DNA of 64,000 nucleotides from the NCBI GenBank assembly GCA_900318145.1, contig ONJM01000004.1, positions 1 through 64,000 of the forward strand. Reading direction: 5' to 3'. The notes beneath the pieces were generated by a model. That model saw nothing but the letters and a program-made list of their open reading frames with translations. It made no database searches and was not told the origin of the DNA. Position numbers and translations under genes: made by a program. Shown here piece after piece: positions 7,006-22,538 of the stretch; the first letter of the stretch is position 1; the number at the start of each line of letters is the position of its first letter. The DNA comes from an uncultured Eubacteriales bacterium (GTDB lineage Bacteria > Bacillota > Clostridia > Christensenellales > Aristaeellaceae).

Positions 7006-8586
7006 TTACTGTCCGCTGGCGCCGTAGTTTGACAGAACCCGCGCGGAAGGATCGTTGACGTCGCATCCGGGCCAGGCTTTGTTGGGCATCCAGTAATCCG
7101 GAATCATCCGGGCCTGGCCGGGATAGTACCGCTCGAACAGCTCCCGGTACAGCAGGCTTTCCTTCGTAAAGGGCGGCCGGTAATCATATTTCGCCGCTTT
7201 TTCAGTGAACTCCTTGTCGGTGTAGGTTCTTTCCGCCAGGGCTTTCAGGTCGTTGACCATGGAGTGGCCCACGGCGTCGGAGAACGCGGCCTTCTGCCGC
7301 CAGAGGATCGCGTCCGGGAGGATATGGTCTTCCGCGAAGGCTTTGCGGATCAGGTATTTGCCCATGTTATGTCTGTTCATTTTCAGCTCCGGGTCAATCT
7401 TCATGGCGTAGTGCACAAAGGCCAGGTCGCCGAAGGGAACGCGGGCTTCCAGGGAGTTCACGGAGATGCAGCGGTCCGCCCGGAGCACGTCGTAGACATG
7501 CAGCTCCCGGATCCGCTTTTCCGCTTCCTCCTGGAAGGCGGCGGCGGAGGGGGCGAAGTCCGTGTATTTGTAGCCGAACAGCTCGTCGGAGATTTCGCCG
7601 GTGAGCAGGACGCGGATATCGGTGTGCTCATGGATCCATCTGCAGACCAGGTACATGCCGACGGAGGCGCGGATGGTCGTGATATCCCAGGTGCCCAGCA
7701 GCTCCACCACCGCGGGCAGGGCTTCCAGCACATCCTTTTCGGAGATAATGACCTCCGTGTGCTCCGAACCGATATAGTCCGCCGCGATCCGTGCGTACTT
7801 CAGGTCGATGGCGTCCACATCCATGCCGATGGCGAAGGTGCGGATCGGATGGGGAAGCAGCTTCTGCGCGATGGCGCAGACGAGGGAGGAATCCAGGCCG
7901 CCGGAGAGCAGGAAGCCGACGGGCGCGTCCGCGTCCAGCCGTTTTTTCACGCCGTCGGTCAGCAGGCGGTTCAGTTCCCTGCAGACGGTGTCCTCATCCT
8001 CCATGATAAACCGGTCCACATGCGACGGATCGGCATAGCTGTGGAATTCCCCGTCGATCCAGTAATGGCCGGGCGGGAAGGGGAGAATCTCCGCGCAGAG
8101 CCCCGACAGGTTCTTCGGCTCGCTGGCGAAGGCCCATTCGCCGTCCTCCAGCCTTCCGTAATAAAGGGGACGGATACCGATGGGATCCCGGGCGGCGATG
8201 ACCTTGTTCCGCTCTCCGTCATAGAGGATCAGGGCAAACTCGGCGTCCAGGGTTTTGAACATTTCAATGCCGTATTCATGATAGAGCGGCAGGAGAATCT
8301 CACAGTCGGATTCCCCCTTGATCTCATAGCGTTCCATGAGGCGTTCGCGGAGGGGCCGGAAGCCGTACAACTCGCCGTTGCAGACCACCGCGTCGTTTCC
8401 GAGATGAAAGGGCTGCATGCCCCGCTCGTTCAGGCCCATGATGGCCAGACGGTGGAACCCCAGGATTCCTCCGGGAATCTCCTCCAGCCGGCTCATATCC
8501 GGCCCCCGGGAGACCGTGCGGTTAAAGCAGGCTTCAATCAGTTCCCGGGGAACCCTGGAGCTTGTCAGACCGAAGATGGAACACAT
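7006..8586 (-). CDS. asnB: Asparagine synthase (glutamine-hydrolysing)
   Basis: A 526-residue class B asparagine synthetase that makes Asn from Asp, ATP and glutamine. The mature N-terminus begins at Cys2 (MCSIFGL), the Ntn-type nucleophile of the glutaminase domain (to about residue 190). The synthetase domain has the ATP-pyrophosphatase loop [15 protein letters not shown] and the downstream YKYTDFAP and EARVPFGD segments. Start choice: the open frame extends to 8748, but ATG 8586 with CAGGAGGCGGTCC upstream places Cys at position 2. A consensus promoter and a leader terminator precede it (8622-8699), implying attenuation. It heads a unit with guaA. Confidence 0.97.
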
Positions 8587-8621: not shown

Positions 8622-8656
8622 AAAAAAACAGGGAGCCCCGAACCAGGACTCCCTTG
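8622..8656 (-). terminator. Leader terminator (attenuator) of asnB
   Basis: Read on the minus strand, an AGGGAG...CTCCCT stem, extended by a T-G wobble and CC/GG with loop TGGTTCG, is followed by seven Ts. It begins about eight bases after the expected transcription start and ends 35 bases before the asnB ATG. Every asnB transcript must therefore pass it. Confidence 0.8.
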
Positions 8657-8670
8657 TCTTGATGGCAGGT

Positions 8671-8699
8671 ATGGTACCATTCCCCCGCGGGCTTGTCAA
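8671..8699 (-). promoter_or_regulatory. asnB promoter
   Basis: On the minus strand: -35 TTGACA (8694-8699), 17-base spacer, -10 TACCAT (8671-8676). The expected start is near 8664. It is divergent from the glnA promoter, with about 63 bases between the two -35 boxes. Confidence 0.75.
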
Positions 8700-8762
8700 G
8701 GACGGCGGACAGGGAGGAAGCGGGAAAACAAAGGGAAAACAATTTCAATCCGGCGAAAACGC

Positions 8763-8791
8763 TTGACAGGGAAAAAACGGGGTGCTATGAT
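8763..8791 (+). promoter_or_regulatory. glnA promoter
   Basis: -35 TTGACA (8763-8768), 17-base spacer, -10 TATGAT (8786-8791), expected start near 8798. The -10 is bracketed by GGGG and CCCC, which could form a small local palindrome. Confidence 0.8.
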
Positions 8792-8801
8792 CCCCGCATA
8801 C

Positions 8802-8843
8802 AAGGCAAGGGAGCCATGACGATGGCTGCACTTGCCTGTTTTT
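8802..8843 (+). terminator. Leader terminator (attenuator) of glnA
   Basis: A two-part hairpin: outer stem AGGCAAG (8803-8809) / CTTGCCT (8831-8837), and inner stem AGCCAT (8812-8817) / ATGGCT (8822-8827). It is followed by TTTTT, starts within a few bases of the predicted 5' end and lies about 40 bases before the glnA ATG. Alternative pairing of GGCTG (8824-8828) with CAGCC (8849-8853) could disrupt it. Confidence 0.75.
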
Positions 8844-8882
8844 GATTTCAGCCAGAGATGAAAGATTAAAGGGGGTTTCACC

Positions 8883-10214
8883 ATGAGCAAGTACACGAAG
8901 GAAGACATCATCCGGATGGTAAGGGAAGGCGACGTTGAATTCATCCGCATGCAGTTCACCGATATTTTCGGCCAGCTGAAGAACGTGGCCATTACCGCCA
9001 GCCAGATCGAGAAGGCCGTCAACAATGAGATTATGATCGACGGCAGCTCCATCGAAGGTTTTGTCCGGATCAATGAGAGCGACCAGTACCTGCGGCCGGA
9101 TCTCGACACTTTCGCGATTCTGCCCTGGCGTCCGCAGCACGGCAAGGTTGCCCGCCTGATCTGCGATGTGTACAACCCGGACGGAAGCCCCTTCGCGGGA
9201 GATCCCCGCGGCGTGCTGAAGAAGGTGCTGGCGGAAGCGGCGGAGATGGGCTATTCCTTCAATGTCGGCCCGGAAATGGAGTTTTTCCTCTTCCAGACGG
9301 ACGAGCACGGCAAACCCACCACGGAGACGTCCGACGAGGCCGGTTATTTTGACCTGGGACCGCTGGACCACGGCGAGGGAACCCGGCGCGAGATCTGCAT
9401 GGCGCTGGAGCAGATGGGCTTTGAGATCGAGGCGAGTCACCATGAAGTGGCGGCGGGCCAGCATGAAATCGACTTCCGGTACGCTGACGCGCTGACCGCG
9501 GCGGACAATATCATGACCTTCAAGCTGGCGGTGAAAACGCTGGCCCAGAAGAACGGCCTGCACGCGACCTTCATGCCCAAGCCGGTCTTCGGCATCAACG
9601 GCAGCGGCATGCACACGAACATGAGCCTGTTCAAGGACGGAAAGAACGTCTTTGCCGATCCGTCGGACAGCCGCGGCCTGAGCAGGGAAGCGTATGCCTT
9701 CATCGCCGGCATCCTGGCGCACATCCGGGGCATGGCGGCCGTAACCAACCCGCTGGTGAACAGCTACAAACGGCTGGTTCCCGGTTATGAGGCGCCCTGC
9801 TACCTGGCCTGGAGCGCCAGCAACCGCAGCGCGCTGATCCGGATTCCCGCCGCCCGCGGCATGGGAACCCGTGTGGAGCTCCGGTGCCCGGATCCCAGCT
9901 GCAACCCGTACCTGAACATGGCGGTCTGCCTGGCGGCCGGCCTGGACGGCATCAAAAAGGGCCTGACGCCTCCGGAAGAGATCACGGACAACATTTTCGC
10001 CATGGACGCGGAAACCCGCGAAGCCAGGGGCATCCGTTCGCTGCCGGGCACGCTGAAGGAAGCCGTGGACTGCCTGAAGGCGGACGAGGTGATCTGCGGC
10101 GCCCTGGGCGAGCACGTGCTGGGCCAGTATGTGGAAGGCAAGCAGAAGGAATGGGACGCGTACCGCACCCATGTCAGCCAGTGGGAGATCGAACGGTATA
10201 TCGTGATGTACTGA
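8883..10214 (+). CDS. glnA: Glutamine synthetase, type I
   Basis: A 443-residue GSI enzyme that makes glutamine from glutamate, ammonia and ATP. The N-terminal beta-grasp contains [15 protein letters not shown]. The catalytic domain shows GPEMEFFLF, the ammonia and metal site region [12 protein letters not shown], the HATFMPKP loop and [13 protein letters not shown] (ATP/glutamate binding). The length and the absence of an insertion fit the GSI-alpha form of Gram-positive bacteria, which is usually controlled by feedback and protein contacts rather than adenylylation. The ribosome site AAGGGGG precedes the ATG. It is first in a probable operon with the ANTAR regulator, gltB, gltD and purC, behind a consensus promoter and a leader terminator. 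Confidence 0.97.
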
Positions 10215-10313
10215 TCGGCGGAACAGCCGCTGATTCCTGAAAAGATCTGAGAAAAAACCATAGCACACAGCAACTGCCAAGCTTCAGAATCTTTTGAGAA
10301 AGGGGGAGGCCCG

Positions 10314-10850
10314 GTGGCACGAATGGTTATTGCCGGAATCTCGGAAACGAACCGGGATCAGATGACACGATTGCTGGCTTCCTCCGGTTATTCCGTATAC
10401 CGTTGCTGCGCATCCGCCGGCAGCCTGCGAAGGGCGCTGGCGGAAAGCGAGGACAGCATCCTGATCTACCTTGGCATGATCCCGGACTGCAGGCCGGAGG
10501 AAGTGGCCTGGGATTACGGCGACCGTGTCCAGATCCTCTGGATCGCGAAACCGGACGTGCTGGAGAACTGCGAAACCCCGGAGATCTTCCGGCTGGCGCT
10601 GCCGGTCTCCGGACAGGCCGTTCTCGGCGCGCTGGAAATGCTGAACCAGCTGCACCGGCGGCAGATGCCCCGGCGGGCCGGAGCGGACCGGGAAGTGGTG
10701 GAACAGGCCAAGCTGATCCTGATGAAGCAGCTTCATCTTACAGAACCGGAGGCGCATCACCTGCTGCAGAAGCAGGCGATGGACCACAGCATCAAAATGG
10801 CGGAGTACGCGGCCAGGATTGTGGCGCGTGAACAGCAGAAAAACGGATAA
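10314..10850 (+). CDS. ANTAR-domain response-regulator-like antiterminator
   Basis: A 178-residue protein. Residues 1-100 look like a receiver-like domain (MVIAGISETNRDQMTRLLAS). The usual phospho-acceptor aspartate pattern is degenerate, and LIYLG occupies the expected strand-3 place. Residues about 115-175 form the three-helix ANTAR RNA-binding domain (VVEQAKLILMKQLHLTEPEA, then HLLQKQAMDHSIKMAEYA). Family members (NasR, AmiR, EutV, clostridial NitR) bind leader hairpins and let polymerase read through terminators. Its place between glnA (99 bases) and gltB (23 bases) points to nitrogen control. The GTG start at 10314 is supported by GGGGGAGG five bases upstream. Targets are inferred; see the findings. 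Confidence 0.88.
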   Translation: MARMVIAGISETNRDQMTRLLASSGYSVYRCCASAGSLRRALAESEDSILIYLGMIPDCRPEEVAWDYGDRVQILWIAKPDVLENCETPEIFRLALPVSGQAVLGALEMLNQLHRRQMPRRAGADREVVEQAKLILMKQLHLTEPEAHHLLQKQAMDHSIKMAEYAARIVAREQQKNG

Positions 10851-10873
10851 AACAAGTCAGGGAGCTGGGGAAC

Positions 10874-13800
10874 ATGCGGGACCGACAATATCCCCTCTAT
10901 CATGAAGAACTGGAACATGAAAGCTGCGGCGTAGGCGCGGTGGCGGACCTGAACGGACGGGCCACGCACAGGACGGTGGACCAGGCGCTCTGCATTGTGG
11001 AGCGCCTGGCGCACCGGGCCGGCAGCGACGCACTGGGAACCACCGGCGACGGAGTCGGGATTCTGACTCAATTGCCCCACAGCCTGTTTTCCGCGTGGGC
11101 CCAGGAAGAGGGAATTTCCCTGGGCCAGCCGGGAGACTACGGCGTGGGGATGTTCTTTTTGCCGGAGGATGAAGTCGGCACGGAAAACGCCTGCCGGATC
11201 TTTGAACAGCTGGCGGCGTCCGAACGGATCGCCGTGCTGGGCTGGCGGGACGTGCCGTGCCATCCGGCCCAGCTGGGCGCCGGCGCCCGGCGGACGATGC
11301 CGCGGATCCGGCAGTGCTTTCTGCGGCGACCCGGGGACGCCGCGTCCGGACTGGACTTTGACCGGCGGCTGTACGTGCTGCGCAGGATCTTTGAAAAACA
11401 GGATACGGACACCTATGTCTGCTCCCTTTCCTGCCGGACGGTCGTGTACAAGGGCATGATGCTGGTGAGCCAGCTGCGCTCCTTCTACGACGACCTGCAG
11501 GACGCGCGCTATACCAGCCGGATGGCCATGGTGCACTCCCGCTTTTCCACGAATACCTTTCCTTCCTGGAGCAAGGCGCATCCCCACCGGATGCTGCTGC
11601 ACAACGGGGAGATCAATACGATCCGCGGCAACCATGACCGGATGAAGGCCCGGGAGGAAACCATGCATTCCCCCGTCATGGGGGAGGAAATGCAGCGGGT
11701 GCTGCCGGTGGTCGCGGAGAACGGCAGCGACAGCCAGATGCTGGACAACACGCTGGAATTCCTGGCGATGAACGGATTCCCGCTTTCCCTGGCCGGCATG
11801 GTGCTGATTCCGGAGCCGTGGCAGCATATGCGGGAGGAAACGGAATGGCGCGACCTGTACCGCTACTACGCCGCGATGATGGAACCCTGGGACGGGCCGG
11901 CGGCGGTCCTGTATTCCGACGGGGAAAAGGTCTGCGCCTCCCTGGACCGGAACGGGCTCCGGCCGCTGCGCTGCGCGCTGACGGACGACCACCGGCTGAT
12001 CCTTTCCTCGGAGGCCGGCGTGCTGTCTGAGGAAAACGCGCATATCGTCCGCCGGTGGAAGCTGAAGTCCGGCGACGTGCTGGAGGCGGACCTGGAAACC
12101 GGGCGGCTGCTGGAAAGCAGCGAGCTGAAGGCCCGCTACGCCCGGGAATACCCTTATTCGGAATGGACGCGGCAGATCCTCCGGCTGCGGGACTTGCCGG
12201 AAGCTTCGGAAAAGGCTCCGGCGGCGGCAGCGGACGAAGGCATGCTGACTGCGCTGGAAAAAGCCTTCCATTATTCCTGGGAGGACGTGCAGGATATCCT
12301 GCTGCCTATGGCCCGGGACGGCGCGGAGCCCATCGTGTCCATGGGCGCGGACGAGCCCCTGGCGGCCCTGTCCCGGACGCACCCGCCGCTGTTCGATTAC
12401 TTTAAGCAGCGTTTCGCGCAGGTGACCAATCCCCCGATCGACGCCCTGCGGGAAGAAGTGAAGACGGACTGCTCGATCTATATCGGGGACGACGGGAACC
12501 TGCTTTCCCGCGAGGCGGAAAACTGCATGATTCTGGAGCTGCCTTCGCCGGTGCTGACTGAGGAGGAGCTGAACCGGATCCGGGAGCTGCGCCATCCGGC
12601 GTTTTCGGTGCGCACCCTTTCCCTGCTGTACGGGAAGAACGAAACGCTCCGGGAAGCGATGGGCGACTTTTTCGCCGCCTGCGACCGGGCGTGCCGGGAC
12701 CGGGTCAACATCCTGATTCTTTCGGACCGGGGCGTGGACGCGTGTCATCTCGCGATTCCGTCGCTGCTGGCGGTATCCGCCCTGGAGCAGCACCTGATCG
12801 GCATCCGGAAGCGCACGGCGGTATCCGTGATCCTGGAAAGCGGCGAGCCCCGGGACGTGCATCATCTGGCCCTGCTGGTGGCCTTCGGCGCGCGGGCGGT
12901 GAACCCCTACCTGGCGCATGAAGTGATCCGGGACCTGTGCGCGAAGGGCGGAATCCGGAAGGAAGCGGAGGATGCCGTGCGGGATTACGACAGGGCGCTG
13001 ACGGCGGGGGTGCTGAAGATCGCCTCCAAGATGGGTGTTTCCACCCTGCAGGCATACCAGAGCGCGCAGCTGTTTGAAGCGGTGGGGCTGGACCGGCAGT
13101 TCGCGGAGCGGTATTTCACAAACACGCCCTGCGCGCTGGGCGGAACAGACCTGGGACAGGTGGAGGCGGACAGCCGGTTCCACCATGACGAAGCCTTTGG
13201 CGAAAAGGCGGAAAGCGGGTTGCCGGCCGTCGGGATCCACCGGCTGCGCACCGGGCCGAAGGCGGAGGAACACCTGTATTCGCCGGAAACCATCCATCTG
13301 CTGCAGCAGGCGGTCCGGACGGACAGTCGGGAACTTTTTGACAGATACGCCGCCGCGGTCCGGGAGGACGGGCCGCGGACGATCCGGTCCATGCTGGACT
13401 TCCGGTATGAGGCCTGCCGGGAAATCCCGCTTTCCGAAGTGGAACCGGCCGGATCCATCGTGAAGCGCTTCCGGACCGGGGCCATGAGCTACGGGTCCAT
13501 CTCCCGGGAAGCCCATGAATGCATGGCGAAGGCCATGAACCGTCTGGGCGGGAAATCCAACAGCGGCGAGGGCGGCGAGCTTCCGGACCGGTTCGGGACG
13601 GATCTGAATTCCACCATCAAGCAGGTGGCTTCGGGCCGCTTCGGCGTTACCCGGGAATACCTGCTCTCTGCCCGGGAAATCCAGATCAAGATGGCGCAGG
13701 GCGCGAAACCGGGCGAGGGCGGACACCTGCCGGGCGCGAAGGTGACGGAGGATATCGCGAGAACCCGCTGCTCCACGCCGGGGATTTCCCTGATTTCCCC

Positions 13801-15199
13801 GCCGCCGCACCATGACATCTATTCCATTGAGGATCTTGCGGAGCTGATTTACGACCTGCAGTGCGCCAACGAACAGGCGAAGGTCACCGTGAAGCTGGTG
13901 TCCTCCACCGGCGTGGGAACCATTGCCAGCGGCGTGGCGAAAGCCGGCGCGGGCGGGATCCTGATTTCCGGCGGGGAGGGCGGCACCGGCGCGGTGCCGC
14001 TGAGCAGCGTGCACCACGCGGGGCTTCCCTGGGAAATCGGCCTGGCGGAAGCGCACCAGGTGCTGTGCCGGAACCGGCTGCGGCAGACGGTGACGCTGGA
14101 AACGGACGGCAAGCTGATGACCGGTCACGACGTGGCGGTGGCGCTGCTGCTGGGCGCGGAGGAATTCGGCTTCGCCACGGCGCCGCTGGTGGCCATGGGC
14201 TGCCGGATGATGCGGGTGTGCCACCTGGGCACCTGCCCCTTCGGCATCGCGACCCAGAATCCGGAGCTTCGCCGGCGGTTCGAGGGAAAACCCGAATACG
14301 TGGAACGGTTCATGCTGTTCATTGCGGAGCAGCTGCGGGAGATCATGGCGAAGCTCGGCGCGCGGACCGTTTCCGAACTGGTGGGCCGCAGCGACCTGCT
14401 CAGAATGAAAGACGGCGCGGCGATGGACCTTTCCGACCTGATCGGATTTGCCAGGAACACGCATTTCCAGCCGGAATCCCGGCATGACTTCCGCCTGAGC
14501 GAACGGACCGACGCCCGGCTGTTTCAGGACCATGTGCAGCTGATGACCACGGACCGCGCCTTCGGAACGATGCTGAAGGGCGACCGGAATATCCAGGCGC
14601 TGGGCTGCGGCGGGCAGTCCTTCGGGGCGTTCCTGCCCGCGGGCCAGTCGATTACGCTCTACGGCGTCGCCAACGATTATCTGGGCAAAGGCCTGTCCGG
14701 CGGCAGGCTGGCAGTCTGTCCGCCGGCGGACAGCATCTGGCAGCCGCAGGACACCCTGATCGGCAACGTGGCGCTGTACGGCGCGACGGGCGGATACGCC
14801 TTCATTGCCGGACGCACGGGCGAACGCTTCGCGGTGCGGAATTCCGGCGCGTGGGCGGTGGCGGAAGGCGTGGGAGACCACGGATGCGAATACATGACCG
14901 GCGGCCGGGTCGCGGTGCTCGGGCCGGTGGGGGATAACTTTGCCGCGGGCATGAGCGGCGGCATCGCCTGGGTGCTGGATGAGGACGGAACGCTGCAGAG
15001 CCGCCTGAACCCGGGCCATGTGCGGCTGTATCCCGTCACCGGCGAACAGGCGCCGGAGCTGAAGCGCCTGCTGAGCATGCACGAAAAGGCGACAGGCTCG
15101 AAGAAAGCCCGGGAGATCCTGGACCGTTTCGACGAAATGCTGCCGGTATTCAGGGCGGTCATTTCGGACGAGTACCGGGCCTGGCTGAAAGGGGTGTAA
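10874..15199 (+). CDS. gltB: Glutamate synthase, large subunit
   Basis: A 1441-residue GOGAT alpha subunit. It transfers the amide of glutamine to 2-oxoglutarate, giving two glutamates. Layout: an N-terminal class II amidotransferase starting at Cys18 (HESCGVGAV; a short propeptide is expected to be removed), a central linker domain, and an FMN/2-oxoglutarate TIM-barrel synthase domain (SNSGEGGELPDRF; SGGEGGTGAVPLSS). The 3Fe-4S ligands are in CRMMRVCHLGTCPFG, and a C-terminal beta-helix carries GGXXG-type repeats (ATGGYAFIAGRTGERF). It is followed after three bases by gltD, so the two subunits are made together. The length is slightly below the usual 1500 residues but all domains are present. 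Confidence 0.97.
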   Translation: MRDRQYPLYHEELEHESCGVGAVADLNGRATHRTVDQALCIVERLAHRAGSDALGTTGDGVGILTQLPHSLFSAWAQEEGISLGQPGDYGVGMFFLPEDEVGTENACRIFEQLAASERIAVLGWRDVPCHPAQLGAGARRTMPRIRQCFLRRPGDAASGLDFDRRLYVLRRIFEKQDTDTYVCSLSCRTVVYKGMMLVSQLRSFYDDLQDARYTSRMAMVHSRFSTNTFPSWSKAHPHRMLLHNGEINTIRGNHDRMKAREETMHSPVMGEEMQRVLPVVAENGSDSQMLDNTLEFLAMNGFPLSLAGMVLIPEPWQHMREETEWRDLYRYYAAMMEPWDGPAAVLYSDGEKVCASLDRNGLRPLRCALTDDHRLILSSEAGVLSEENAHIVRRWKLKSGDVLEADLETGRLLESSELKARYAREYPYSEWTRQILRLRDLPEASEKAPAAAADEGMLTALEKAFHYSWEDVQDILLPMARDGAEPIVSMGADEPLAALSRTHPPLFDYFKQRFAQVTNPPIDALREEVKTDCSIYIGDDGNLLSREAENCMILELPSPVLTEEELNRIRELRHPAFSVRTLSLLYGKNETLREAMGDFFAACDRACRDRVNILILSDRGVDACHLAIPSLLAVSALEQHLIGIRKRTAVSVILESGEPRDVHHLALLVAFGARAVNPYLAHEVIRDLCAKGGIRKEAEDAVRDYDRALTAGVLKIASKMGVSTLQAYQSAQLFEAVGLDRQFAERYFTNTPCALGGTDLGQVEADSRFHHDEAFGEKAESGLPAVGIHRLRTGPKAEEHLYSPETIHLLQQAVRTDSRELFDRYAAAVREDGPRTIRSMLDFRYEACREIPLSEVEPAGSIVKRFRTGAMSYGSISREAHECMAKAMNRLGGKSNSGEGGELPDRFGTDLNSTIKQVASGRFGVTREYLLSAREIQIKMAQGAKPGEGGHLPGAKVTEDIARTRCSTPGISLISPPPHHDIYSIEDLAELIYDLQCANEQAKVTVKLVSSTGVGTIASGVAKAGAGGILISGGEGGTGAVPLSSVHHAGLPWEIGLAEAHQVLCRNRLRQTVTLETDGKLMTGHDVAVALLLGAEEFGFATAPLVAMGCRMMRVCHLGTCPFGIATQNPELRRRFEGKPEYVERFMLFIAEQLREIMAKLGARTVSELVGRSDLLRMKDGAAMDLSDLIGFARNTHFQPESRHDFRLSERTDARLFQDHVQLMTTDRAFGTMLKGDRNIQALGCGGQSFGAFLPAGQSITLYGVANDYLGKGLSGGRLAVCPPADSIWQPQDTLIGNVALYGATGGYAFIAGRTGERFAVRNSGAWAVAEGVGDHGCEYMTGGRVAVLGPVGDNFAAGMSGGIAWVLDEDGTLQSRLNPGHVRLYPVTGEQAPELKRLLSMHEKATGSKKAREILDRFDEMLPVFRAVISDEYRAWLKGV

Positions 15200-15202
15200 G
15201 GC

Positions 15203-16606
15203 ATGGGCAAGGCGACCGGATTTCTGGAATATGCCCGGAAGGAAAACCCGTTCCGGGACGCGCGGACCCGCCTGGCGGACTACGCGGACCTGCACACGGC
15301 GCAGCCCGCGGAGGAACGGGTCTGCCAGGCTTCCCGCTGCATGAACTGCGGGGTGCCCTTCTGCCAGTCCTCCTTCGGGTGCCCGCTGCACAACCTGATT
15401 CCGGAATGGAACGACCTGCTGTGCCGGGGGCTGGAGCGGGAGGCGCTGGAACGGCTGCTGGAAACGGCACCGTTCCCGGAATTCACGGGACACGTCTGCC
15501 CCGCGCTGTGCGAGAAAGCCTGCAACCTGGCGGAGGACGGCGTTACCAACCGGGACAACGAGCTGTACCTGATTGAAAAAGGCTTCGCGGCGGGCTGGAT
15601 CCGGCCGAAGCCGCCCGCGAAAAGGACGGGAAAGCGGGTTGCCGTGGCCGGAAGCGGGCCTTCCGGCCTGGCGGCGGCCGCGCTGCTGAACCGGTGCGGC
15701 CATCAGGTGACGGTATGCGAGCGGGCAGACCGGCCCGGCGGGCTGCTGATGTACGGCATTCCGAACATGAAGCTGCCCAAGGAGATTGTGGAGCGGCGGA
15801 TCCGCCTGATGGAGGCGGAAGGGATCGCATTCCGGCTGAACACGGAGGCGGGCCCGGAGATCCTGGAGGAATACGACGCGGCCGTGCTGTGCGGCGGCGC
15901 CCGGAAACCACGCGCCCTCAACGCGGAAAACGCGGACGCGGAGGGCGTCTTCTTTGCCGTGGACTATCTGACGAAAACCACAAAGGCGCTGCTGGCCGGC
16001 GAAGACTGCGCCTTCGCGAAGGGCAGGCGCGTGCTGGTCATCGGCGGCGGCGATACGGGCAACGACTGCGTCGGCACGGTGCTGCGCCAGGGGTGCGCTT
16101 CCGTGACGCAGATCGAGATCATGCCGGCGCCGCCGGAAATGCGGACACCGGGGAATCCCTGGCCGGAATGGCCCCGGACACTGCGCACCGACTACGGGCA
16201 GCAGGAAGCCGCGGCGGTGCAGGGCGGGGACCCGCGGATCTATGAGACGACGGTGCGAAGGATTCTGACGGATGAAAACCGCCGGATCACCGCGGCGGAG
16301 ACGGTCCGGCTCCGGCGGACGCCGGAAGGGAAAACGGAAGCGGTTCCGGGATCCGAAAAGGTGCTTCCCTGCGATCTGATGCTGATTGCCGCCGGATTTG
16401 TCGGGTGCGACGAAAAAACAGAAAAAATTTTTCCGGCGGACGCGGACGCCCGGGGGCGGCTGATGCCGGCGGACGGAAGCCACCGCCTCGGCGGAAAGCT
16501 TTTCAGCGCCGGCGATATGCGGACCGGGCAGAGCCTTGTGGTGCGCGCTTTGGCGGACGGGCGCGCGGCCGCGCAGGAAATTGACAGGTACCTGTCGAAT
16601 CATTAG
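15203..16606 (+). CDS. gltD: Glutamate synthase, small subunit (NADPH/NADH)
   Basis: A 467-residue FAD-dependent subunit that feeds electrons from NAD(P)H to GltB. The N-terminus carries the cysteine-rich 4Fe-4S region (ASRCMNCGVPFCQ, CPLHNLIPEWN, CPALCEKACN). FAD binding is by VAVAGSGPSGLAAA, and the NAD(P)H fold is VLVIGGGDTGNDC. The C-terminal FAD motif is FSAGDMRTGQSLVV. The length is normal for the family. It starts three bases after the gltB stop and ends 23 bases before purC, so all belong to one transcription unit. Confidence 0.97.
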   Translation: MGKATGFLEYARKENPFRDARTRLADYADLHTAQPAEERVCQASRCMNCGVPFCQSSFGCPLHNLIPEWNDLLCRGLEREALERLLETAPFPEFTGHVCPALCEKACNLAEDGVTNRDNELYLIEKGFAAGWIRPKPPAKRTGKRVAVAGSGPSGLAAAALLNRCGHQVTVCERADRPGGLLMYGIPNMKLPKEIVERRIRLMEAEGIAFRLNTEAGPEILEEYDAAVLCGGARKPRALNAENADAEGVFFAVDYLTKTTKALLAGEDCAFAKGRRVLVIGGGDTGNDCVGTVLRQGCASVTQIEIMPAPPEMRTPGNPWPEWPRTLRTDYGQQEAAAVQGGDPRIYETTVRRILTDENRRITAAETVRLRRTPEGKTEAVPGSEKVLPCDLMLIAAGFVGCDEKTEKIFPADADARGRLMPADGSHRLGGKLFSAGDMRTGQSLVVRALADGRAAAQEIDRYLSNH

Positions 16607-16629
16607 CAGACGGAAGGAGATGGTTTGCT

Positions 16630-17352
16630 ATGATCCAGGGTAAACAGCTGTATGAAGGAAAAGCCAAGAAGGTATTTGAGACGGATGATCCGGAGCTTCT
16701 GATCGTTTCGTACAAGGACGACGCGACGGCGTTCAACGGCCTGAAGAAGGGGACGATCCAGGGAAAGGGCGTCATCAACAACAAAATGAGCAACGCCCTG
16801 ATGCGGATGCTGGAGAAAAAGGGAATTCCGACGCATTTTGTGGAGGAGCTCAGCGAGCGCGATACGCTGGTGCGCCGGGTGAAGATCGTTCCGCTGGAAG
16901 TGATCATCCGGAATATTTCCGCCGGTTCCTTCGCGAAGCATTACGGCGTCGAGGAAGGCATCGTCTTTGACGCGCCTACGATTGAGTTCTCCTACAAGAA
17001 CGACGAGCTGGGCGACCCGCTGCTGAACGAATACCACGCGCTGGCGCTGAAGCTGGCCACGAAGGAAGAAATTGAGACGATCAAGGATTATTCCTTCCGG
17101 GTCAACGAAGCCCTGAAGGAATTCTGGCTTTCCTGCGGCGTGACGCTGGTGGATTTCAAGCTGGAGTTCGGGCGGCTTTCCGACGGCACGATCGTGCTGG
17201 CGGACGAAATCAGCCCCGATACCTGCCGGCTCTGGGACAGCAAAACCCATGAAAAACTGGACAAGGACCGTTTCCGCCGGGATATGGGCGGCGTAGAGGA
17301 CGCTTACCGGGAAATCATGGGGCGCATGGAAAAACAGATCGGGGAAGACTGA
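16630..17352 (+). CDS. purC: SAICAR synthetase
   Basis: A 240-residue phosphoribosylaminoimidazole-succinocarboxamide synthase. It condenses CAIR with aspartate in purine synthesis. Family motifs seen: LYEGKAKKVFETDD at the start (ATP site), VRRVKIVPLEVIIRNISAGS, LKLEFGR-type strand and LADEISPDTCRLWD. The AAGGAG ribosome site is 10-14 bases upstream. It is the last gene of the glnA-regulator-gltBD unit and ties purine synthesis to nitrogen supply. No other early purine genes lie beside it, although purA and purB occur 6-8 kb downstream. Confidence 0.96.
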   Translation: MIQGKQLYEGKAKKVFETDDPELLIVSYKDDATAFNGLKKGTIQGKGVINNKMSNALMRMLEKKGIPTHFVEELSERDTLVRRVKIVPLEVIIRNISAGSFAKHYGVEEGIVFDAPTIEFSYKNDELGDPLLNEYHALALKLATKEEIETIKDYSFRVNEALKEFWLSCGVTLVDFKLEFGRLSDGTIVLADEISPDTCRLWDSKTHEKLDKDRFRRDMGGVEDAYREIMGRMEKQIGED

Positions 17353-17392
17353 GCATTTTTTGTTCTTCGGGTGTTTTTCAGAAAAAAAGTGC

Positions 17393-17421
17393 TTGACAGA
17401 CTTCGGGATACTGTATACAAT
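17393..17421 (+). promoter_or_regulatory. amt promoter
   Basis: -35 TTGACA (17393-17398), 17-base spacer, -10 TACAAT (17416-17421), start expected near 17428. It lies in the 222-base gap after purC. Confidence 0.8.
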
Positions 17422-17435
17422 TTCGGCAATCCAGC

Positions 17436-17473
17436 AAGGCGCAAGGGTGTGCAACGCACCCGGCGCCTTTTTT
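17436..17473 (+). terminator. Leader terminator (attenuator) of amt
   Basis: The outer stem AAGGCGC (17436-17442) pairs with GCGCCTT (17463-17469). The inner stem GGGTG/CACCC has loop TGCAACG. A six-T run follows. It begins about eight bases after the predicted start and lies 100 bases before the amt ATG. The 3' arm GCGCC can instead pair with GGCGC at 17478-17482, offering an alternative, non-terminating fold. Confidence 0.8.
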
Positions 17474-17574
17474 CATTGGCGCGAAGCCGGTACGTTCCGG
17501 GGCGGATCCGCCGGAACGGACGGACAGGAGCCGATGAAGGCCGGAGGAAATTTACAGAAACGGAAGTGAGCAAC

Positions 17575-19290
17575 ATGACGTACTCTCCCGCGAACACGAT
17601 CTGGGTGCTGCTGGGCGCGGCGCTGGTATTCTTCATGCAGGCGGGCTTCGCGATGTGTGAAGCCGGCTTTACCCGGGCCAAGAATACAGGCAATATCCTG
17701 ATGAAGAACCTGATGGACTTCTGCATCGGAACGCCGCTGTACTGGCTGTTCGGATTCGGGATTATGTTCGGAACCGGCACGGCGGTCTTCGGATGGATCG
17801 ATCCGTTTATCATGAAGGAATACGGCGCGGTGCTGCCGGCCGGCGTTCCCCTCTGGGCCTTCGCGATTTTCCAGACGGTCTTCTGCGCGACCTCGGCGAC
17901 CATCGTTTCCGGCGCCATGGCGGAGCGCACGAAGTTTTCCGCCTACTGCCTCTACTCCGCCGCGATTTCCCTGTTCATCTACCCGGTCAGCGGCCACTGG
18001 ATCTGGGGCGGCGGCTGGCTGGCGGAAATGGGATTCCATGATTTCGCCGGATCCACGGCGGTGCATATGGTCGGCGGCGTCTGCGCCCTGGTGGGCGCGA
18101 AGATCCTGGGGCCCAGGATCGGCAAGTACGGAAAGGACGGAAAGCCCCGGGCGATCCTCGGCCATAACCTGAGCATCGCGGCGCTGGGCGTGTTCATCCT
18201 GTGGTTCTGCTGGTTCGGGTTCAACGGCGCTTCCACCGTCGGGATGGACAGCGACGACCTGATCACCTCCGCCGGCCTGGTGTTCTTCAACACGAACCTG
18301 GCGGCGGCCATGGCGACCCTGGTCACGATGATTTTCACCTGGCTGCGCTACGGGAAGCCGGATGTCTCCATGACCTTCAACGCGGCGCTGGCCGGACTGG
18401 TCGGAATCACCGCGGGGTGCGACGCCGTGAATCCCTTCGGGGCGGCGGTGATCGGCATCGTCTGCGGCTTCGCGGTGGTGCTGTCCGTGGCGTTTTTCGA
18501 CAATGTGGTCAAAATTGACGACCCGGTGGGCGCGATCTCGGTGCACGGGGTCTGCGGCGCGCTGGGCACGATCCTGACAGGGTTCTTCGCCACAGGCGTT
18601 TCGACGGGGAAGGGGCTGTTCTACGGCGGCGGCTTCAGCTTCCTGGGAACGCAGGTCCTGGGCGTGCTGGCCACGATCGCGTGGACGGCGGCGGTCATCA
18701 CGGCGGTCTTCCTCCTGATCCGGAAGGCCATCGGCCTGCGGGCGGACGCTGAGGATGAGATCATGGGCCTGGACCGTTCCGAGCACGGCCTGCATACGGC
18801 GTATGCCGGAATCGCCATGCTGCCGGAGGATCTTCCCGCGGACGCGGCGGCCGGAACGGTCCTGCCCGCTGCCGCGGCGGCGGAGCCTGCCGCCGCGCCG
18901 GCAAAGAAGCCGGAGAAGGCGCCGGACGCGCCGGTTTACACGAAGGTGCAGATCATCTGCCGCCCGGCCAGCCTGGAGAGCCTGAAGGCGGCGATGAACC
19001 GGATCGGCATCACGGGCATGACGGTGACCAACGTGATGGGCTACGGCGCGCAGAAGGGCAAGCCGGAGTACTACCGCGGCACGCCGGTGGACGTCACGCT
19101 GCTGCCGAAGGTGCAGGTGGATATCGTGGTCAGCAAGGTGCCGGTGCGCCAGGTGATCGACACCGCCAGGAGCGTCCTGCATACCGGGCATATCGGCGAC
19201 GGCAAGATCTTCGTCACGGATGTGGAGAACGTGGTCCGCGTCCGGACGGGGGAGGAAGGCTACGACGCGCTGCAGGGCGACGAGGACTGA
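17575..19290 (+). CDS. amt: Ammonium transporter fused to a PII (GlnB/GlnK) domain
   Basis: A 571-residue fusion. Residues 1-415 or so are a complete Amt channel with about eleven membrane helices (start TYSPANTIWVLLGAALVFFM; QAGFAMCEAGFTR; the channel-lining GHWIWGGGWL; VHMVGGVCALVGAK; the FNGASTVGMD loop). After an Ala/Pro-rich linker, residues 454-571 are a full PII domain (VYTKVQIICRPASLESLKAA, T-loop GKPEYYRGTPVDV, KVQVDIVVSKVPV, GHIGDGKIFV). PII proteins bind ATP/ADP and 2-oxoglutarate and plug Amt pores, so the sensor is tethered to its target here. Start choice: the frame opens earlier, but ATG 17575 begins the channel and follows GGAAGTGAG. It is monocistronic, with its own promoter and attenuator. 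Confidence 0.95.
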   Translation: MTYSPANTIWVLLGAALVFFMQAGFAMCEAGFTRAKNTGNILMKNLMDFCIGTPLYWLFGFGIMFGTGTAVFGWIDPFIMKEYGAVLPAGVPLWAFAIFQTVFCATSATIVSGAMAERTKFSAYCLYSAAISLFIYPVSGHWIWGGGWLAEMGFHDFAGSTAVHMVGGVCALVGAKILGPRIGKYGKDGKPRAILGHNLSIAALGVFILWFCWFGFNGASTVGMDSDDLITSAGLVFFNTNLAAAMATLVTMIFTWLRYGKPDVSMTFNAALAGLVGITAGCDAVNPFGAAVIGIVCGFAVVLSVAFFDNVVKIDDPVGAISVHGVCGALGTILTGFFATGVSTGKGLFYGGGFSFLGTQVLGVLATIAWTAAVITAVFLLIRKAIGLRADAEDEIMGLDRSEHGLHTAYAGIAMLPEDLPADAAAGTVLPAAAAAEPAAAPAKKPEKAPDAPVYTKVQIICRPASLESLKAAMNRIGITGMTVTNVMGYGAQKGKPEYYRGTPVDVTLLPKVQVDIVVSKVPVRQVIDTARSVLHTGHIGDGKIFVTDVENVVRVRTGEEGYDALQGDED

Positions 19291-19332
19291 ACGCGCATAT
19301 GTTCAGGAAATGTATTAATGTATTATAACGTA

Positions 19333-19361
19333 TTGACATAAAAAACGCGGAGTGATAAAAT
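19333..19361 (+). promoter_or_regulatory. glmS promoter
   Basis: -35 TTGACA (19333-19338), 17-base spacer, -10 TAAAAT (19356-19361), start expected near 19368. Confidence 0.8.
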
Positions 19362-19370
19362 CCGCAGGTA

Positions 19371-19407
19371 CAGGGGATGAACTGTACGGTTCATCTCCTG
19401 TTTTTTT
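19371..19407 (+). terminator. Leader terminator (attenuator) of glmS
   Basis: A 12-bp stem (CAGGGGATGAAC / GTTCATCTCCTG, one G-T wobble) closes the six-base loop TGTACG and is followed by seven Ts. It starts only about three bases after the predicted transcript start and ends 28 bases before the glmS ATG. There is no room for, and no sign of, the glmS ribozyme. Confidence 0.85.
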
Positions 19408-19435
19408 GATTACACCGGATACGGAGGATGATCCC

Positions 19436-21304
19436 ATGTGCGGAATTGTCGGATATACGGGGCGCCGCCAGGCGGCTCCGATTTTGCTGGACAGCCTTTC
19501 CAGGCTGGAATACCGCGGGTATGATTCCGCCGGCCTTGCCGTGCGGAACGGCACGGCGCTGGCCGAGGTGGTCAAGGCTACCGGCAAGCTGTACCACCTG
19601 GCGGACAAGACGGACCAGGGCCGGGCGCTGGCCGGCTGCTGCGGCATCGGGCATACCCGGTGGGCGACCCACGGGGATCCCAGCGTGGTGAACGCCCATC
19701 CCCATGTCAGCGGCAACTGCTCCGGATCCGGTTCCGGCGCGGTGGAGTCCGATGTGGTGGGCGTGCACAACGGCATCATCGAGAACTATACGGAGCTGAA
19801 GGACAAGCTGCTGCGCCACGGATACGCCTTCTACAGCGATACGGACACGGAGGTGGCCGTGAAGCTGGTGGATTACTATTACAAGAAATACAAAATCGGC
19901 CCGGTGGACGCCATCACGCGGACGATGGTGCGGATCCGGGGAAGCTATGCTCTGGCCTTGATGTTCAAGGACTATCCGGACGAGATCTTCGCGGCGCGGA
20001 AGGATTCGCCCATGATCATCGGAACGGGGGAGGAGGAGTCCTTCCTGGCTTCCGATGTGCCGGCGATCCTGAAATATACCCGGCAGGTTTACTATATCGG
20101 CAACCTGCAGGTAGCCCGGGTGTCCCCGGGGAAGGTCGCCTTCTTCGACCTGAACGGGGACGAGAACACGATCCCGCTGACGGAGATCACCTGGGACGCC
20201 GCCGCGGCGGAAAAAGGCGGGTACGAGCACTTCATGCTCAAGGAAATCCATGAGCAGCCGGCCGCCGTGCGGGATACGCTGAACAGCATTGTGAAGGACG
20301 GCAAAATCGACCTTTCCGGGACCGGGCTGACGGAGGAAACGGTCCGCTCTGTCTCGAAAATAGACATCGTTGCCTGCGGCTCAGCGTGGCATGTGGGCAT
20401 GGCCGCCCAGTATGTGATCGAGGACCTTGCCGGGATTCCGGTGCGCGTGGAGCTGGCGTCGGAATACCGGTACCGGAAGATTCCCATGGCGGAGAAAACG
20501 CTGGTGATCGTCATTTCCCAGTCCGGGGAAACGGCGGACAGCCTGGCGGCGCTGCGGGTGGCAAAGGAACGGGGTGCGGAAACCCTGGCGATCGTCAATG
20601 TGATCGGCTCCACCATCGCGCGGGAGGCGGACCATGTGCTGTATACCCTGGCCGGGCCGGAAATCGCCGTGGCCACCACCAAGGCCTACAGCGCGCAGCT
20701 GATCGCGACGGACGTGCTGGCCGTCTACCTGGCGCTGGCGCGGGGAACGGTGGCGGAGGAGGAAGCGGCCGCGCTGCTGGCCGAGCTGGCGGAGATTCCC
20801 GCCAAGATCGAGCGGATCCTGGAGGAAAAAGCCCGGCTGCAGTGGTTCTCCTCCAAGATCGCGAACACGCATGATATCTTCTTTATCGGCCGGGGGCTGG
20901 ATTACGCCATCAGCCTGGAAGGCAGCCTGAAGATGAAGGAGATCAGCTACATCCATTCCGAGGCCTACGCCGCGGGCGAGCTGAAGCACGGCACGATCAG
21001 CCTGATCGAGAACAATACCCTGGTGATCGGCGTGCTGACCCAGAAGGAGCTGTACGAGAAGACCGTTTCCAATATGATGGAGTGCAGGTCCCGGGGCGGC
21101 TACCTGATGGGCATCACCACGAACGGGAATTTCTCCGTGGAGGACAGCGTGAACTTCACGGTGTACATCCCCAAGTCGGACGAGCATTTCATGGCGTCCC
21201 TGGCGGTGGTGCCGCTGCAGCTGCTGGCGTATTACACCAGCGTGAACCGGGGCCTGGACGTGGACAAGCCCAGGAACCTGGCGAAGAGCGTGACGGTTGA
21301 ATAA
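19436..21304 (+). CDS. glmS: Glucosamine-6-phosphate synthase (GFAT)
   Basis: A 622-residue L-glutamine:fructose-6-phosphate aminotransferase, the first step toward UDP-GlcNAc and peptidoglycan. The glutaminase domain starts at Cys2 (MCGIVGYTG) and has LEYRGYDSAG, GIGHTRWATHG and VHNGIIENY. Two SIS isomerase domains follow (ACGSAWHVGMAAQYVIEDLA; VVISQSGETADSL; FIGRGLDYAISLEGSLKMKE). The C-terminus KPRNLAKSVTVE is canonical. Start choice: the frame is open from 19352, but ATG 19436 with GGAGGATGATCCC upstream gives Cys2. It is the head of the glmS-dapL-purA-purB run. Confidence 0.97.
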   Translation: MCGIVGYTGRRQAAPILLDSLSRLEYRGYDSAGLAVRNGTALAEVVKATGKLYHLADKTDQGRALAGCCGIGHTRWATHGDPSVVNAHPHVSGNCSGSGSGAVESDVVGVHNGIIENYTELKDKLLRHGYAFYSDTDTEVAVKLVDYYYKKYKIGPVDAITRTMVRIRGSYALALMFKDYPDEIFAARKDSPMIIGTGEEESFLASDVPAILKYTRQVYYIGNLQVARVSPGKVAFFDLNGDENTIPLTEITWDAAAAEKGGYEHFMLKEIHEQPAAVRDTLNSIVKDGKIDLSGTGLTEETVRSVSKIDIVACGSAWHVGMAAQYVIEDLAGIPVRVELASEYRYRKIPMAEKTLVIVISQSGETADSLAALRVAKERGAETLAIVNVIGSTIAREADHVLYTLAGPEIAVATTKAYSAQLIATDVLAVYLALARGTVAEEEAAALLAELAEIPAKIERILEEKARLQWFSSKIANTHDIFFIGRGLDYAISLEGSLKMKEISYIHSEAYAAGELKHGTISLIENNTLVIGVLTQKELYEKTVSNMMECRSRGGYLMGITTNGNFSVEDSVNFTVYIPKSDEHFMASLAVVPLQLLAYYTSVNRGLDVDKPRNLAKSVTVE

Positions 21305-21332
21305 GCCGGCGACGATCACGGGAGGGATGAGA

Positions 21333-22538
21333 ATGGGCCTGAAACCGAACGGAAATTACCGGAATCTGAAGGATTCGTATCTGTTCTTCCGGATTTCGAA
21401 GCAGGTGGCCGCGTACCGGGCGGAGCATCCGGACCGGCCGCTGTACCGGCTGGGGATCGGGGACGTTTCCCGGCCGCTGTGCGGCGCGGTGATCGACGCG
21501 CTGCACGCGGCGGCGGACGACCAGGCGTCGGCCGGAAGCTTTCACGGATACACGCCGGAGTGCGGCATTCCGGAATTCCGGGCCGCCGCGGCCGGGTATT
21601 ACGCGCGGCGGGGCGTGCGGCTGGATCCGGAGGAGGTTTTCGTATCCAGCGGCGCCAGCGACGAGCTGGGGGATATCCTGGATCTGTTTGACCCGTCCTC
21701 CCCGGCGCTGATCACCCAGCCGGCGTATCCCGCGTATGTGGACGCCAGCGTCATGGCGGGGCGGAAAACGGTCTTCCTGAACGCCGGTCCGGAGAACAGC
21801 TTCCTGCCGGCGCCCCCGGAGGACACGGAGGCGGAGCTGATCTACCTGTGCTCGCCGAACAATCCCACCGGCGCGGTTTACAGCCTGGAGGGACTGCAGG
21901 CGTGGGTGGACTTCGCGAACCGGCGCGGCGCGGTCATTCTCTTCGACGCCGCCTACGAGGCGTTCGTGGAAGGGGACCTGCCCCACAGCATTTTTGAGAC
22001 GAAGGGCGCGGAAACGTGCGCCATCGAGATCTGCTCCCTGTCCAAGACGGCCGGGTTCACCGGCACGCGGCTGGGCTACACCGTGATCCCGAAGGCGCTG
22101 GAGCGGGAAGGCATGAACCTGAACGCCATGTGGATCCGGAACCGCACCACGAAGACGAACGGCATTTCCTACATCCTGCAGAAGGCCGGCATCGCGGTCT
22201 TCACGGACGAAGGACTGCGGCAGATTCAGGAGAATATCCGGATCTACAAGCAGAACGCGGGGGTGCTGATGGACGCGCTGGACAGCGTCGGGATCCGCTA
22301 CTGGGGCGGGAAGAACGCGCCGTATATCTGGATGGCCTGCCCGGACGGCATGAAGAGCTGGGATTTCTTCGACCTGCTGCTGCGTGAGATCCAGGTGATC
22401 GGCACCCCCGGGGAAGGCTTCGGCGCCTGCGGGGAAGGGTTCTTCCGGCTGTCCTCCTTCGGGGATCCGGAGGAAACGAAAACGGCCGCGGAGCGGCTGC
22501 GGCGGCTGCTGGCGGAAAGAAAAGGAGATTTGGCATGA
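21333..22538 (+). CDS. dapL: LL-diaminopimelate aminotransferase
   Basis: A 401-residue PLP aminotransferase of class I/II. It makes LL-DAP directly from tetrahydrodipicolinate for lysine and peptidoglycan. Family features: the N-terminal NYRNLKDSYLFFRI, the substrate loop YTPECGIPEFR, SPNNPTGAVYSLE, and the PLP lysine in SLSKTAGFTGTRLGYT. Start choice: GGGAGG at 21320-21326 touches an upstream ATG, while the ATG at 21333 has seven bases of spacing, giving MGLKPNGNY. It follows glmS by 28 bases and its stop overlaps the purA start by four bases, so it is firmly in the operon. Pairing glmS with dapL supplies both the sugar and the peptide side of the cell wall. Confidence 0.95.
   Translation: MGLKPNGNYRNLKDSYLFFRISKQVAAYRAEHPDRPLYRLGIGDVSRPLCGAVIDALHAAADDQASAGSFHGYTPECGIPEFRAAAAGYYARRGVRLDPEEVFVSSGASDELGDILDLFDPSSPALITQPAYPAYVDASVMAGRKTVFLNAGPENSFLPAPPEDTEAELIYLCSPNNPTGAVYSLEGLQAWVDFANRRGAVILFDAAYEAFVEGDLPHSIFETKGAETCAIEICSLSKTAGFTGTRLGYTVIPKALEREGMNLNAMWIRNRTTKTNGISYILQKAGIAVFTDEGLRQIQENIRIYKQNAGVLMDALDSVGIRYWGGKNAPYIWMACPDGMKSWDFFDLLLREIQVIGTPGEGFGACGEGFFRLSSFGDPEETKTAAERLRRLLAERKGDLA

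Follow-up and report, generated by a model that had tools for sequence, protein, structure and literature searches.

Introduction

ANTAR antitermination has been reported to need two hairpins with six-base loops (hexaloops), in which loop positions A1 and G4 and the stems are required (PMC3369931). In the eut system of Enterococcus faecalis, the eut terminators overlap, in their 5' part, with the EutV 13-mer AGCAANGRRGCUY (PMC3369931), and antitermination requires both hexaloops; the upstream one is a recruitment hairpin, and a longer linker abolishes antitermination (PMC8934654). The same work, from 2022, reduced the definition of the minimal ANTAR motif to one hexaloop, proposed a hand-over model to account for the need of two in antitermination, and called for single-hexaloop sites to be studied both by bioinformatics and by experiment. 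In the open-licence literature, our search for ANTAR and 'single hexaloop' returned only that paper (PMC8934654), and no title on the regulon described here.

Here we describe leaders with one such hairpin in an uncultured Eubacteriales bacterium of the family Aristaeellaceae. They lie in a stretch of 64,000 nucleotides (positions 1 to 64,000 of contig ONJM01000004.1, assembly GCA_900318145.1; hereafter the window), in which an ANTAR gene adjoins the glutamine synthetase gene glnA. From sequence comparison, we consider it likely that these leaders are governed by ANTAR antitermination through a single hexaloop, as a regulon that serves the supply and use of glutamine. To our knowledge, no multi-operon single-hexaloop ANTAR regulon is known. 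An ANTAR-type gene also adjoins glnA in glnA-nitR of Clostridium saccharobutylicum, where a single operon is concerned.

Among the closest described systems is EutV/EutW, with which the present system shares an ANTAR protein, an A1/G4 hexaloop closed by at least three pairs, overlap with a terminator, and nitrogen-related targets; its loop and stem fit the 13-mer, with the loop AAGGGA matching AANGRR. However, EutV/EutW require an upstream hairpin (P1) at a critical spacing, whereas only a P2-like, terminator-overlapping hairpin was seen here, and the receiver domain of EutV can be phosphorylated, unlike that of the present protein. AmiR of Pseudomonas aeruginosa (PDB 1QO0) likewise combines a pseudo-receiver with an ANTAR domain and has a histidine at the position of EutV Tyr164, but its target is an amidase leader that carries a dual hairpin, and AmiC is its partner (PMC3369931), in contrast to the putative multi-operon, single-hairpin glutamine regulon of the window. 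NasR of Klebsiella oxytoca (PDB 4AKK) also brings about ANTAR antitermination of nitrogen assimilation genes, but has a NIT sensor domain, unlike the pseudo-receiver protein found here; it binds one hairpin weakly (about 12 uM), and full binding needs both (PMC7496416).

The conserved hexaloop hairpin

The first-pass annotation of the window had pointed to four genes, asnB, glnA, amt and glmS, each preceded by TTGACA, a 17-base spacer, a -10 box and, directly past the promoter, a stable hairpin with a T-run, and had taken the terminator loops (TGGTTCG, TGACGA, TGCAACG and TGTACG) to be related. All four promoters are present with the -10 boxes that it named, and folding confirmed the four terminators. 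The loops, however, are apical loops that differ between genes and between species, and are ruled out as a common recognition element. What is conserved is a small hairpin inside the 5' arm of the terminator and mutually exclusive with it, present in the leaders of asnB, glnA and amt (R1 denotes our covariance model):

8647..8658, minus strand: asnB ANTAR-type hexaloop hairpin GAC[AAGGGA]GUC (by sequence; R1 match at 8622-8664, minus strand, E 2.2e-9)
8804..8815, plus strand: glnA ANTAR-type hexaloop hairpin GGC[AAGGGA]GCC (R1 match at 8798-8842, E 1.4e-8)
17439..17452, plus strand: amt ANTAR-type hexaloop hairpin GCGC[AAGGGU]GUGC (R1 match at 17434-17471, E 4.1e-5)
8671..8699, minus strand: asnB promoter, TTGACA-17-TACCAT (by sequence)
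8622..8660, minus strand: asnB terminator hairpin and T-run, overlapping the hexaloop hairpin (by folding)
8763..8791, plus strand: glnA promoter, TTGACA-17-TATGAT (by sequence)
8803..8843, plus strand: glnA terminator hairpin and T-run, mutually exclusive with the hexaloop hairpin (by folding)
17393..17421, plus strand: amt promoter, TTGACA-17-TACAAT (by sequence)
17436..17473, plus strand: amt terminator hairpin and T-run (by folding)
19333..19361, plus strand: glmS promoter, TTGACA-17-TAAAAT (by sequence)
19370..19408, plus strand: glmS terminator hairpin and T-run, without an A1/G4 hexaloop hairpin (by folding)

The loop follows the consensus R-A-R-G-G-N, mostly AAGGGN, on a stem of 3-4 bp, and the hairpin alone is weak (-0.7 to -3.4 kcal/mol). 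The terminators have minimum free energies of -22.0 (asnB), -23.3 (glnA), -26.6 (amt) and -22.0 kcal/mol (glmS), with z-scores of -3.1 to -5.1. We scanned the whole source genome (3.24 Mb in 63 contigs, 88% complete) for TTGACA-N17-TANNAT and found 100 sites, compared with one for the reversed pattern used as a control. A hairpin of -20 kcal/mol or lower, starting at most 14 nt from the -10 box and directly followed by at least four T, occurs at only four of the 100 sites, namely those of asnB, glnA, amt and glmS, so the promoter-then-terminator arrangement is both real and rare; the near misses were a hairpin of -28 kcal/mol without a T-run (L010) and a terminator 29 nt on (L071).

For comparison, we collected 120 genomes of the same family, in 113 of which glnA was matched, and read the best 30 glnA loci, 30 amt loci and 30 asnB loci of the genus, our own being included each time. 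The glnA leaders were read without any loop filter. The hairpin is kept in 29/30 of them as G(G/A)C-AAGGGN-G(C/U)(C/U), 11-13 nt past the -10 box and followed by the terminator, and the sole exception (L118) also stands alone among the 30 in having no ANTAR gene downstream. The element occurs in 21/30 amt leaders, with a stem that is mostly GCGC/GUGC or GCGC/GCGC, and upstream of asnB in 24/30 loci; in 13 of these 24 it lies about 1.3 kb upstream, with dapL in between in the three that were read (L190, L197 and L201). The remaining asnB loci comprise three with T-box-like leaders and three without a promoter match. Among relatives, it is the hexaloop hairpin that is kept, whereas the terminator apical loops vary.

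Pairing of the stem was assessed in an alignment (A1) of 54 of 65 distinct extracted leaders. The 11 others were left out for length or fit, not for absence of the stem: an inner T-run cut some short (L095, L105, L185, L192, L193 and L204), some had long loops (L122, L123 and L130), and two were a poor fit (L150, whose loop is GAAGGU, and L183, for which the wrong motif had served as anchor). All 162/162 stem cells of the 54 leaders are paired; 11 cells are changed on both sides (G-C to C-G), and another pair varies between G-U, G-C and A-U. None of 500 shuffles reached as high a value, in cells paired or in score, and shifting the partner by 1-3 columns left 30-56% paired. Because both arms of the stem lie within the 5' arm of the terminator, pairing within the terminator does not explain this result. 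In a wider test, in which leaders were anchored on promoter, loop motif and T-run only and the stem played no part in selection, 177 of 191 distinct leaders showed at least three pairs around the hexaloop, against a background of 5.6% among 17318 other occurrences of the motif in the same loci. Since the leaders are related to one another, these counts do not amount to independent trials. Loop position 1 is A in 179/191, and G4 was imposed by the search motif R-A-R-G-G, as it was in the extraction for the alignment.

Such a stretch, strongly conserved (CAAGGCAAGGGNG) and located at about +5 to +16, where operators are common, might instead be an operator in the DNA, bound by a repressor or an activator, with the terminator as a mere brake or a stabiliser of the RNA 5' end. 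We regard this as very unlikely, since the stem co-varies as RNA, with G-U pairs (GGC/GUC, GCGC/GUGC) and changes from G-C to C-G and from G-C to A-U, and in amt the distance from the promoter to the hexaloop is greater by about 6 nt while the hairpin is kept. In addition, the sole linked regulator belongs to an RNA-binding class, and it is missing where the motif is missing (L118).

The number of hexaloops in each leader

Measured by the 2012 definition of ANTAR targets, the leaders have a stem of at least three pairs closing the hexaloop (177/191 and 54/54), A1 and G4 in the loop, and one hairpin exclusive with an intrinsic terminator, but not two hairpins joined by a short linker. The regulon, as judged from its sequences, would work like known ANTAR attenuators, but for want of this last feature it departs from the 2012 RNA family definition.

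In the 177 stem-bearing leaders, the loop starts 14-16 nt past the -10 box in 125 and 20-22 nt past it in 38 (the amt type). With transcription starts taken 5-7 nt past the -10 box, only about 7-11 nt of RNA would precede the loop (13-17 in amt), of which 3-4 belong to the stem, so that an upstream hairpin of 12 nt could not be transcribed in the glnA/asnB type and would have barely enough room in that of amt.

These distances bear on a classical dual-hexaloop antitermination in which the first hairpin was missed, being located either upstream, behind a start further up, or inside the terminator loop. The dual hexaloop is the only ANTAR antitermination architecture shown working in PMC3369931 and PMC8934654, and a second A..G.. 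hexaloop within 40 nt downstream was found in 10 of 153 leaders, compared with 2.2 expected from shuffling, an excess that speaks for two hexaloops and that perhaps comes from palindromic terminators. Within 60 nt upstream, however, a second hexaloop was found in 5/153 leaders and in 5.6 after shuffling, so that there was no excess, and a conserved second hexaloop appeared neither upstream nor downstream in the 153 leaders. No dual-hexaloop site was found in 33 related loci, in a scan that had no positive control. In short amt leaders, such as that of this genome, the hexaloop hairpin is also separated from the 3' arm of the terminator by only about 3-7 nt. A missed first hairpin is thus unlikely in our judgement. 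The earlier view that each leader has one hairpin rather than two is well supported, although it had been reached by way of the terminator loop, the real element being the AAGGGN hexaloop in the 5' arm.

Occurrence of the leaders with the ANTAR gene

The first-pass annotation had proposed a covariance model and a search of related genomes; these located the leaders widely and tied them to the presence of an ANTAR gene. The ANTAR domain (PF03861) was matched in 69/120 family genomes, with exactly one match in 66 of the 69 (two in G031 and G070, three in G087), and the gene mostly lies directly after glnA. R1 matched 38/120 genomes at E<=1e-4; 36 of these 38 have an ANTAR gene, compared with 33 of the 82 that gave no such match (Fisher p 2.8e-9), and in the two R1-positive genomes without one (G039 and G061) the contig breaks off within glnA, on the side expected to carry ANTAR. 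A separate set comprised 80 ANTAR loci of named genomes, many of them related to the R1 training set, whose titles give uncultured Clostridia, Clostridiales or Christensenella-type bacteria, many from the ruminant gut. Nine of these loci were too short to contain the leader, and all the rest (71/71) have an R1 match on the correct strand, 1.2-2.0 kb before the ANTAR gene.

In an order-wide scan, 22/200 genomes matched R1 at E<=0.001, 17 of the 22 lying outside the family. Six out-of-family loci were read: L449, L450, L451 and L454 resemble ordinary terminators, L452 resembles a coding-strand match, and L453 has a purF-like leader. This last leader, with GGC[AAAGGC]GCC, belongs to G341 (family f16), whose glnA has ANTAR behind it; another genome (G206, family f23) has a glnA leader GGC[AAAGGA]GCU together with an ANTAR gene. 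By these two leaders, the arrangement extends to at least three families.

A strong promoter followed by a leaky terminator could also serve as a constitutive attenuator, keeping a low basal level with no regulator, and glmS of the source species, which keeps promoter and terminator without the hexaloop, would suit this explanation. We hold it to be highly improbable, as neither the conservation of the hexaloop nor its co-occurrence with ANTAR would be explained; in amt, the AA of the loop is bulged in this genome's terminator and yet is conserved.

Features of the ANTAR protein

The presence of an ANTAR protein beside glnA, as first annotated, was confirmed by a profile match:

10314..10850, plus strand: ANTAR protein with a degenerate receiver domain (PF03861, 67.1 bits; curated cut-off 27.3)

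This is the sole PF03861 match in the source genome, the assembly of which is 88% complete. The protein has 178 aa, and its AlphaFold model (mean pLDDT 90.8, pTM 0.66) shows an alpha/beta domain resembling a receiver, along with a long helix and the ANTAR helices. Its relatives with structures, by sequence, are 1s8n (presumably Rv1626), 6wsh (a response regulator that we take for EutV), NasR and AmiR. Aspartate occupies the acceptor position in 0/24 orthologs (Leu53 in the window protein), and positions 8-9 are without an acidic residue in all 24. As the phospho-acceptor Asp and the acidic pair that mark a two-component response regulator are both absent, the domain is a pseudo-receiver. Since the receiver has no phosphate-accepting Asp, its input probably comes from a ligand or from a partner protein, by analogy with AmiC for AmiR; candidates are glutamine synthetase, the PII domain of Amt, glutamine and 2-oxoglutarate. 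In the window, amt and PII are fused in a single chain (17575-19290), which is a possible input to the ANTAR protein.

The residues of EutV that contact G4 or plug the loop include Lys149, Glu160 and Met172 (PMC8934654). With EutV residue numbers transferred to the ANTAR protein by sequence alignment, the positions matching these three are invariant in 24/24 orthologs. The position of the G4-stacking Tyr164 is His in 24/24, as in AmiR, and that of Arg142 is Arg or Lys in 23 of 24, whereas Arg168 corresponds to Gln and Arg175 mostly to Gly, so that some contacts are lost. His148 was considered as a trait specific to the family and rejected, as AmiR shares it (EAH in both). Lysines 143/147 contact the hexaloop of the other chain in the EutV structure, and their loss might mark the use of a single loop; these positions vary in the orthologs, but AmiR is without these lysines too, by our reading of the alignment. 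In the 2022 minimal motif, an ANTAR dimer binds a single hexaloop; the RNA features of this motif are present here, and the main protein contact residues are kept.

Genes behind the leaders

The genes concerned in the window, and a further hexaloop upstream of pyrG, are as follows:

7006..8586, minus strand: asnB, glutamine-hydrolysing asparagine synthase (profile/name match)
8883..10214, plus strand: glnA, type I glutamine synthetase
10874..15199, plus strand: gltB, large subunit of glutamate synthase, on the same strand as the ANTAR gene and 23 bases downstream of it
15203..16606, plus strand: gltD, glutamate synthase small subunit
16630..17352, plus strand: purC, starting 23 bases past gltD
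17575..19290, plus strand: amt-PII, ammonium transporter fused to a PII domain
19436..21304, plus strand: glmS
21297..22538: dapL, after glmS
22535..23809: purA, after dapL
25494..25511, plus strand: pyrG-upstream hexaloop hairpin CAGGGC[AAGGGC]GUCCUG (pyrG ATG at 25549; R1 E 0.22)

As asnB and glnA are divergent, two near-identical hexaloops stand back to back, about 146 bp apart (window 8647-8815); paired opposite-strand R1 matches recur in many genus genomes.

In the source genome, R1 recovers asnB, glnA and amt, with weaker matches at purF (E 1.7) and pyrG. The purF leader (contig 22) carries AAGC[AAGGGA]GCUU between TTGACA-17-TACATT and a terminator. The pyrG hairpin has a 6-bp stem and lies before the ribosome-binding site, without a nearby TTGACA promoter or T-run, and is possibly a relic or a translational ANTAR site. 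Two further matches (C22:20764 and C14:23427) appear to lie in coding regions. We then read 40 loci, 39 of them chosen from the R1 matches of the genus and one being the purF stretch of the source genome; genes were named by comparison with window and loci proteins, and some by NCBIfam. The leader precedes glmS in 11, amt in 10, purF in 4, a PEP-synthase-like gene in 4, glnA, gltB and pyrG in 2 each, and dapL, gltD, purA and an acetyltransferase gene in one each; L344, where there is no gene, looks false. Further leaders were found at dapL (G026), at pyrG and gltD (G091) and at glmS (G066). By these gene names, most genes of the putative regulon make or spend glutamine or glutamate. The PEP-synthase-like protein (L331, L342, L351 and L354) has about 650 aa and only weak similarity to PEP synthase. 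In L315 and L327, the leader is followed by a remnant of glnA and then gltB, and L327 keeps a piece of the ANTAR gene; from this arrangement, glnA and the ANTAR gene appear to have been deleted with the leader retained.

The glmS gene of the source genome behaves differently. It has no R1 match even at E<=10 and no A1/G4 hairpin, which rules it out as a clear member and removes the idea of one element common to all four leaders. In place of the hexaloop (window 19362-19408) there is a 6-bp GUACAG...CUGUAC stem that excludes the terminator, and the same stem is found, with promoter and terminator kept, in G147 (L444), whereas G158 keeps GGC[AAUGAG]GUC. Hence the regulon of four genes first proposed stands for asnB, glnA and amt and not for the glmS of the source genome, and it is larger than proposed, with purF here and dapL, pyrG, gltD, glmS and others in relatives.

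In other genera, glmS carries GGC[AAGGGR]GCC directly at its ribosome-binding site, in the interval from the Shine-Dalgarno GGAGG to the start codon (as GGAGGCAAGGGAGCC-ATG or a near variant), and L152 has the variant GGC[AAGGGU]GCC at glmS. Among the collected loci this element has eight distinct contexts, 8/8 of which are glmS starts:

L154 1485, L155 1485 and L156 1485, minus strand: hexaloop on the glmS ribosome-binding site (motif match)
L369, L381, L414, L423 and L448: hexaloop on the glmS ribosome-binding site (motif match)

L448 has it together with a promoter-proximal leader. As the hairpin would cover the ribosome-binding site, ANTAR binding should lower translation, and the element is possibly, as a lead, a translational ANTAR site of opposite sign.

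Comparison with Rfam gave the leaders no known identity. At gathering scores, riboswitches, T-box, the glmS ribozyme and other families had no match in the window, the glmS leader included, so Rfam families are ruled out for these leaders; below the gathering score, only weak, chance-like matches appeared, at the asnB/glnA and amt leaders, which were the leaders so scanned. The T-box (RF00230) is the asnB leader of some relatives, but the leaders here have about 45 nt, whereas its model has 219 positions. One such T-box (L198 1214-1457) scored 81.3 bits (E 2.6e-18), under the gathering score of 93; the asnB leaders of L189 and L199 were recognised as T-boxes by motif alone. As the T-box takes the place of the ANTAR-type leader, asnB switches between two RNA control systems within the genus.

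Discussion

We infer from these sequences that the ANTAR protein binds the leader RNA and that binding switches the genes on, and we place the start sites, the operon and the signal on the same footing. The targets would be asnB, the glnA-ANTAR-gltB-gltD operon (with purC next), amt-PII and purF, with attenuation at the RNA 5' end. RNA from the strong sigma-A-type promoter would by default fold at once into the intrinsic terminator, with an energy of about -20 to -23 kcal/mol. Alternatively, its 5' arm could form the 3-4 bp hexaloop hairpin, which is too weak alone; an active ANTAR protein would bind and hold this single hexaloop, the terminator would be blocked, and polymerase would read on. 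Because the ANTAR gene sits behind its own target leader, positive feedback would be expected. Our guess is that the active state corresponds to low glutamine, because amt and glnA are members. The first-pass idea, in which the ANTAR protein encoded in the glnA operon responds at promoter-proximal attenuators of nitrogen genes, is therefore well supported, although the feature had been misidentified and glmS is not a clear member.

We also think it probable, with a little more reserve, that one 5'-terminal hexaloop suffices without a recruitment hairpin, and that it coordinates ammonium uptake, glutamine synthetase and glutamate synthase (GS/GOGAT), enzymes that spend glutamine (asnB/purF/glmS/pyrG), and the synthesis of lysine and nucleotides, all within one clade of gut Clostridia. 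An antiterminator at the first transcribed bases may replace recruitment, either through slow promoter escape or because the protein meets polymerase at the promoter.

Several points weigh against this reading. A single hexaloop may be too weak, because known ANTAR antitermination needs two. The relatives are mostly metagenome assemblies and are not independent of one another, the training set of R1 consisted of leaders of these same genes, and the transcription starts were placed from the -10 box only. Among the 191 promoter-anchored leaders, 14 are without a stem, some belonging to other promoters and some to target leaders, and 12 have G at loop position 1. Of 24 more distant glnA-ANTAR loci, 10 have no promoter match; the 14 that do have one comprise seven with an A1/G4 hexaloop, two with the G1 variant and five in which the stem fails. 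Moreover, 33 ANTAR-positive genomes of the 120 have no R1 match at E<=1e-4, and no promoter-proximal leader was found at glmS in 29 family loci besides that of the source genome, unlike in the genus, where 11 glmS loci have the leader.

The regulon is thus a candidate answer to the single-hexaloop question and offers a large natural set of sites. Since the leaders have only about 45 nt, one regulator per genome is the rule and a natural case of loss exists, the requirement for a recruitment hairpin becomes directly testable. If the proposal is true, rumen and gut Clostridia would have an RNA-based, glutamine-centred circuit for nitrogen control, and if it also holds for the site on the glmS ribosome-binding site, one protein could switch some genes on through transcription and another off through translation.

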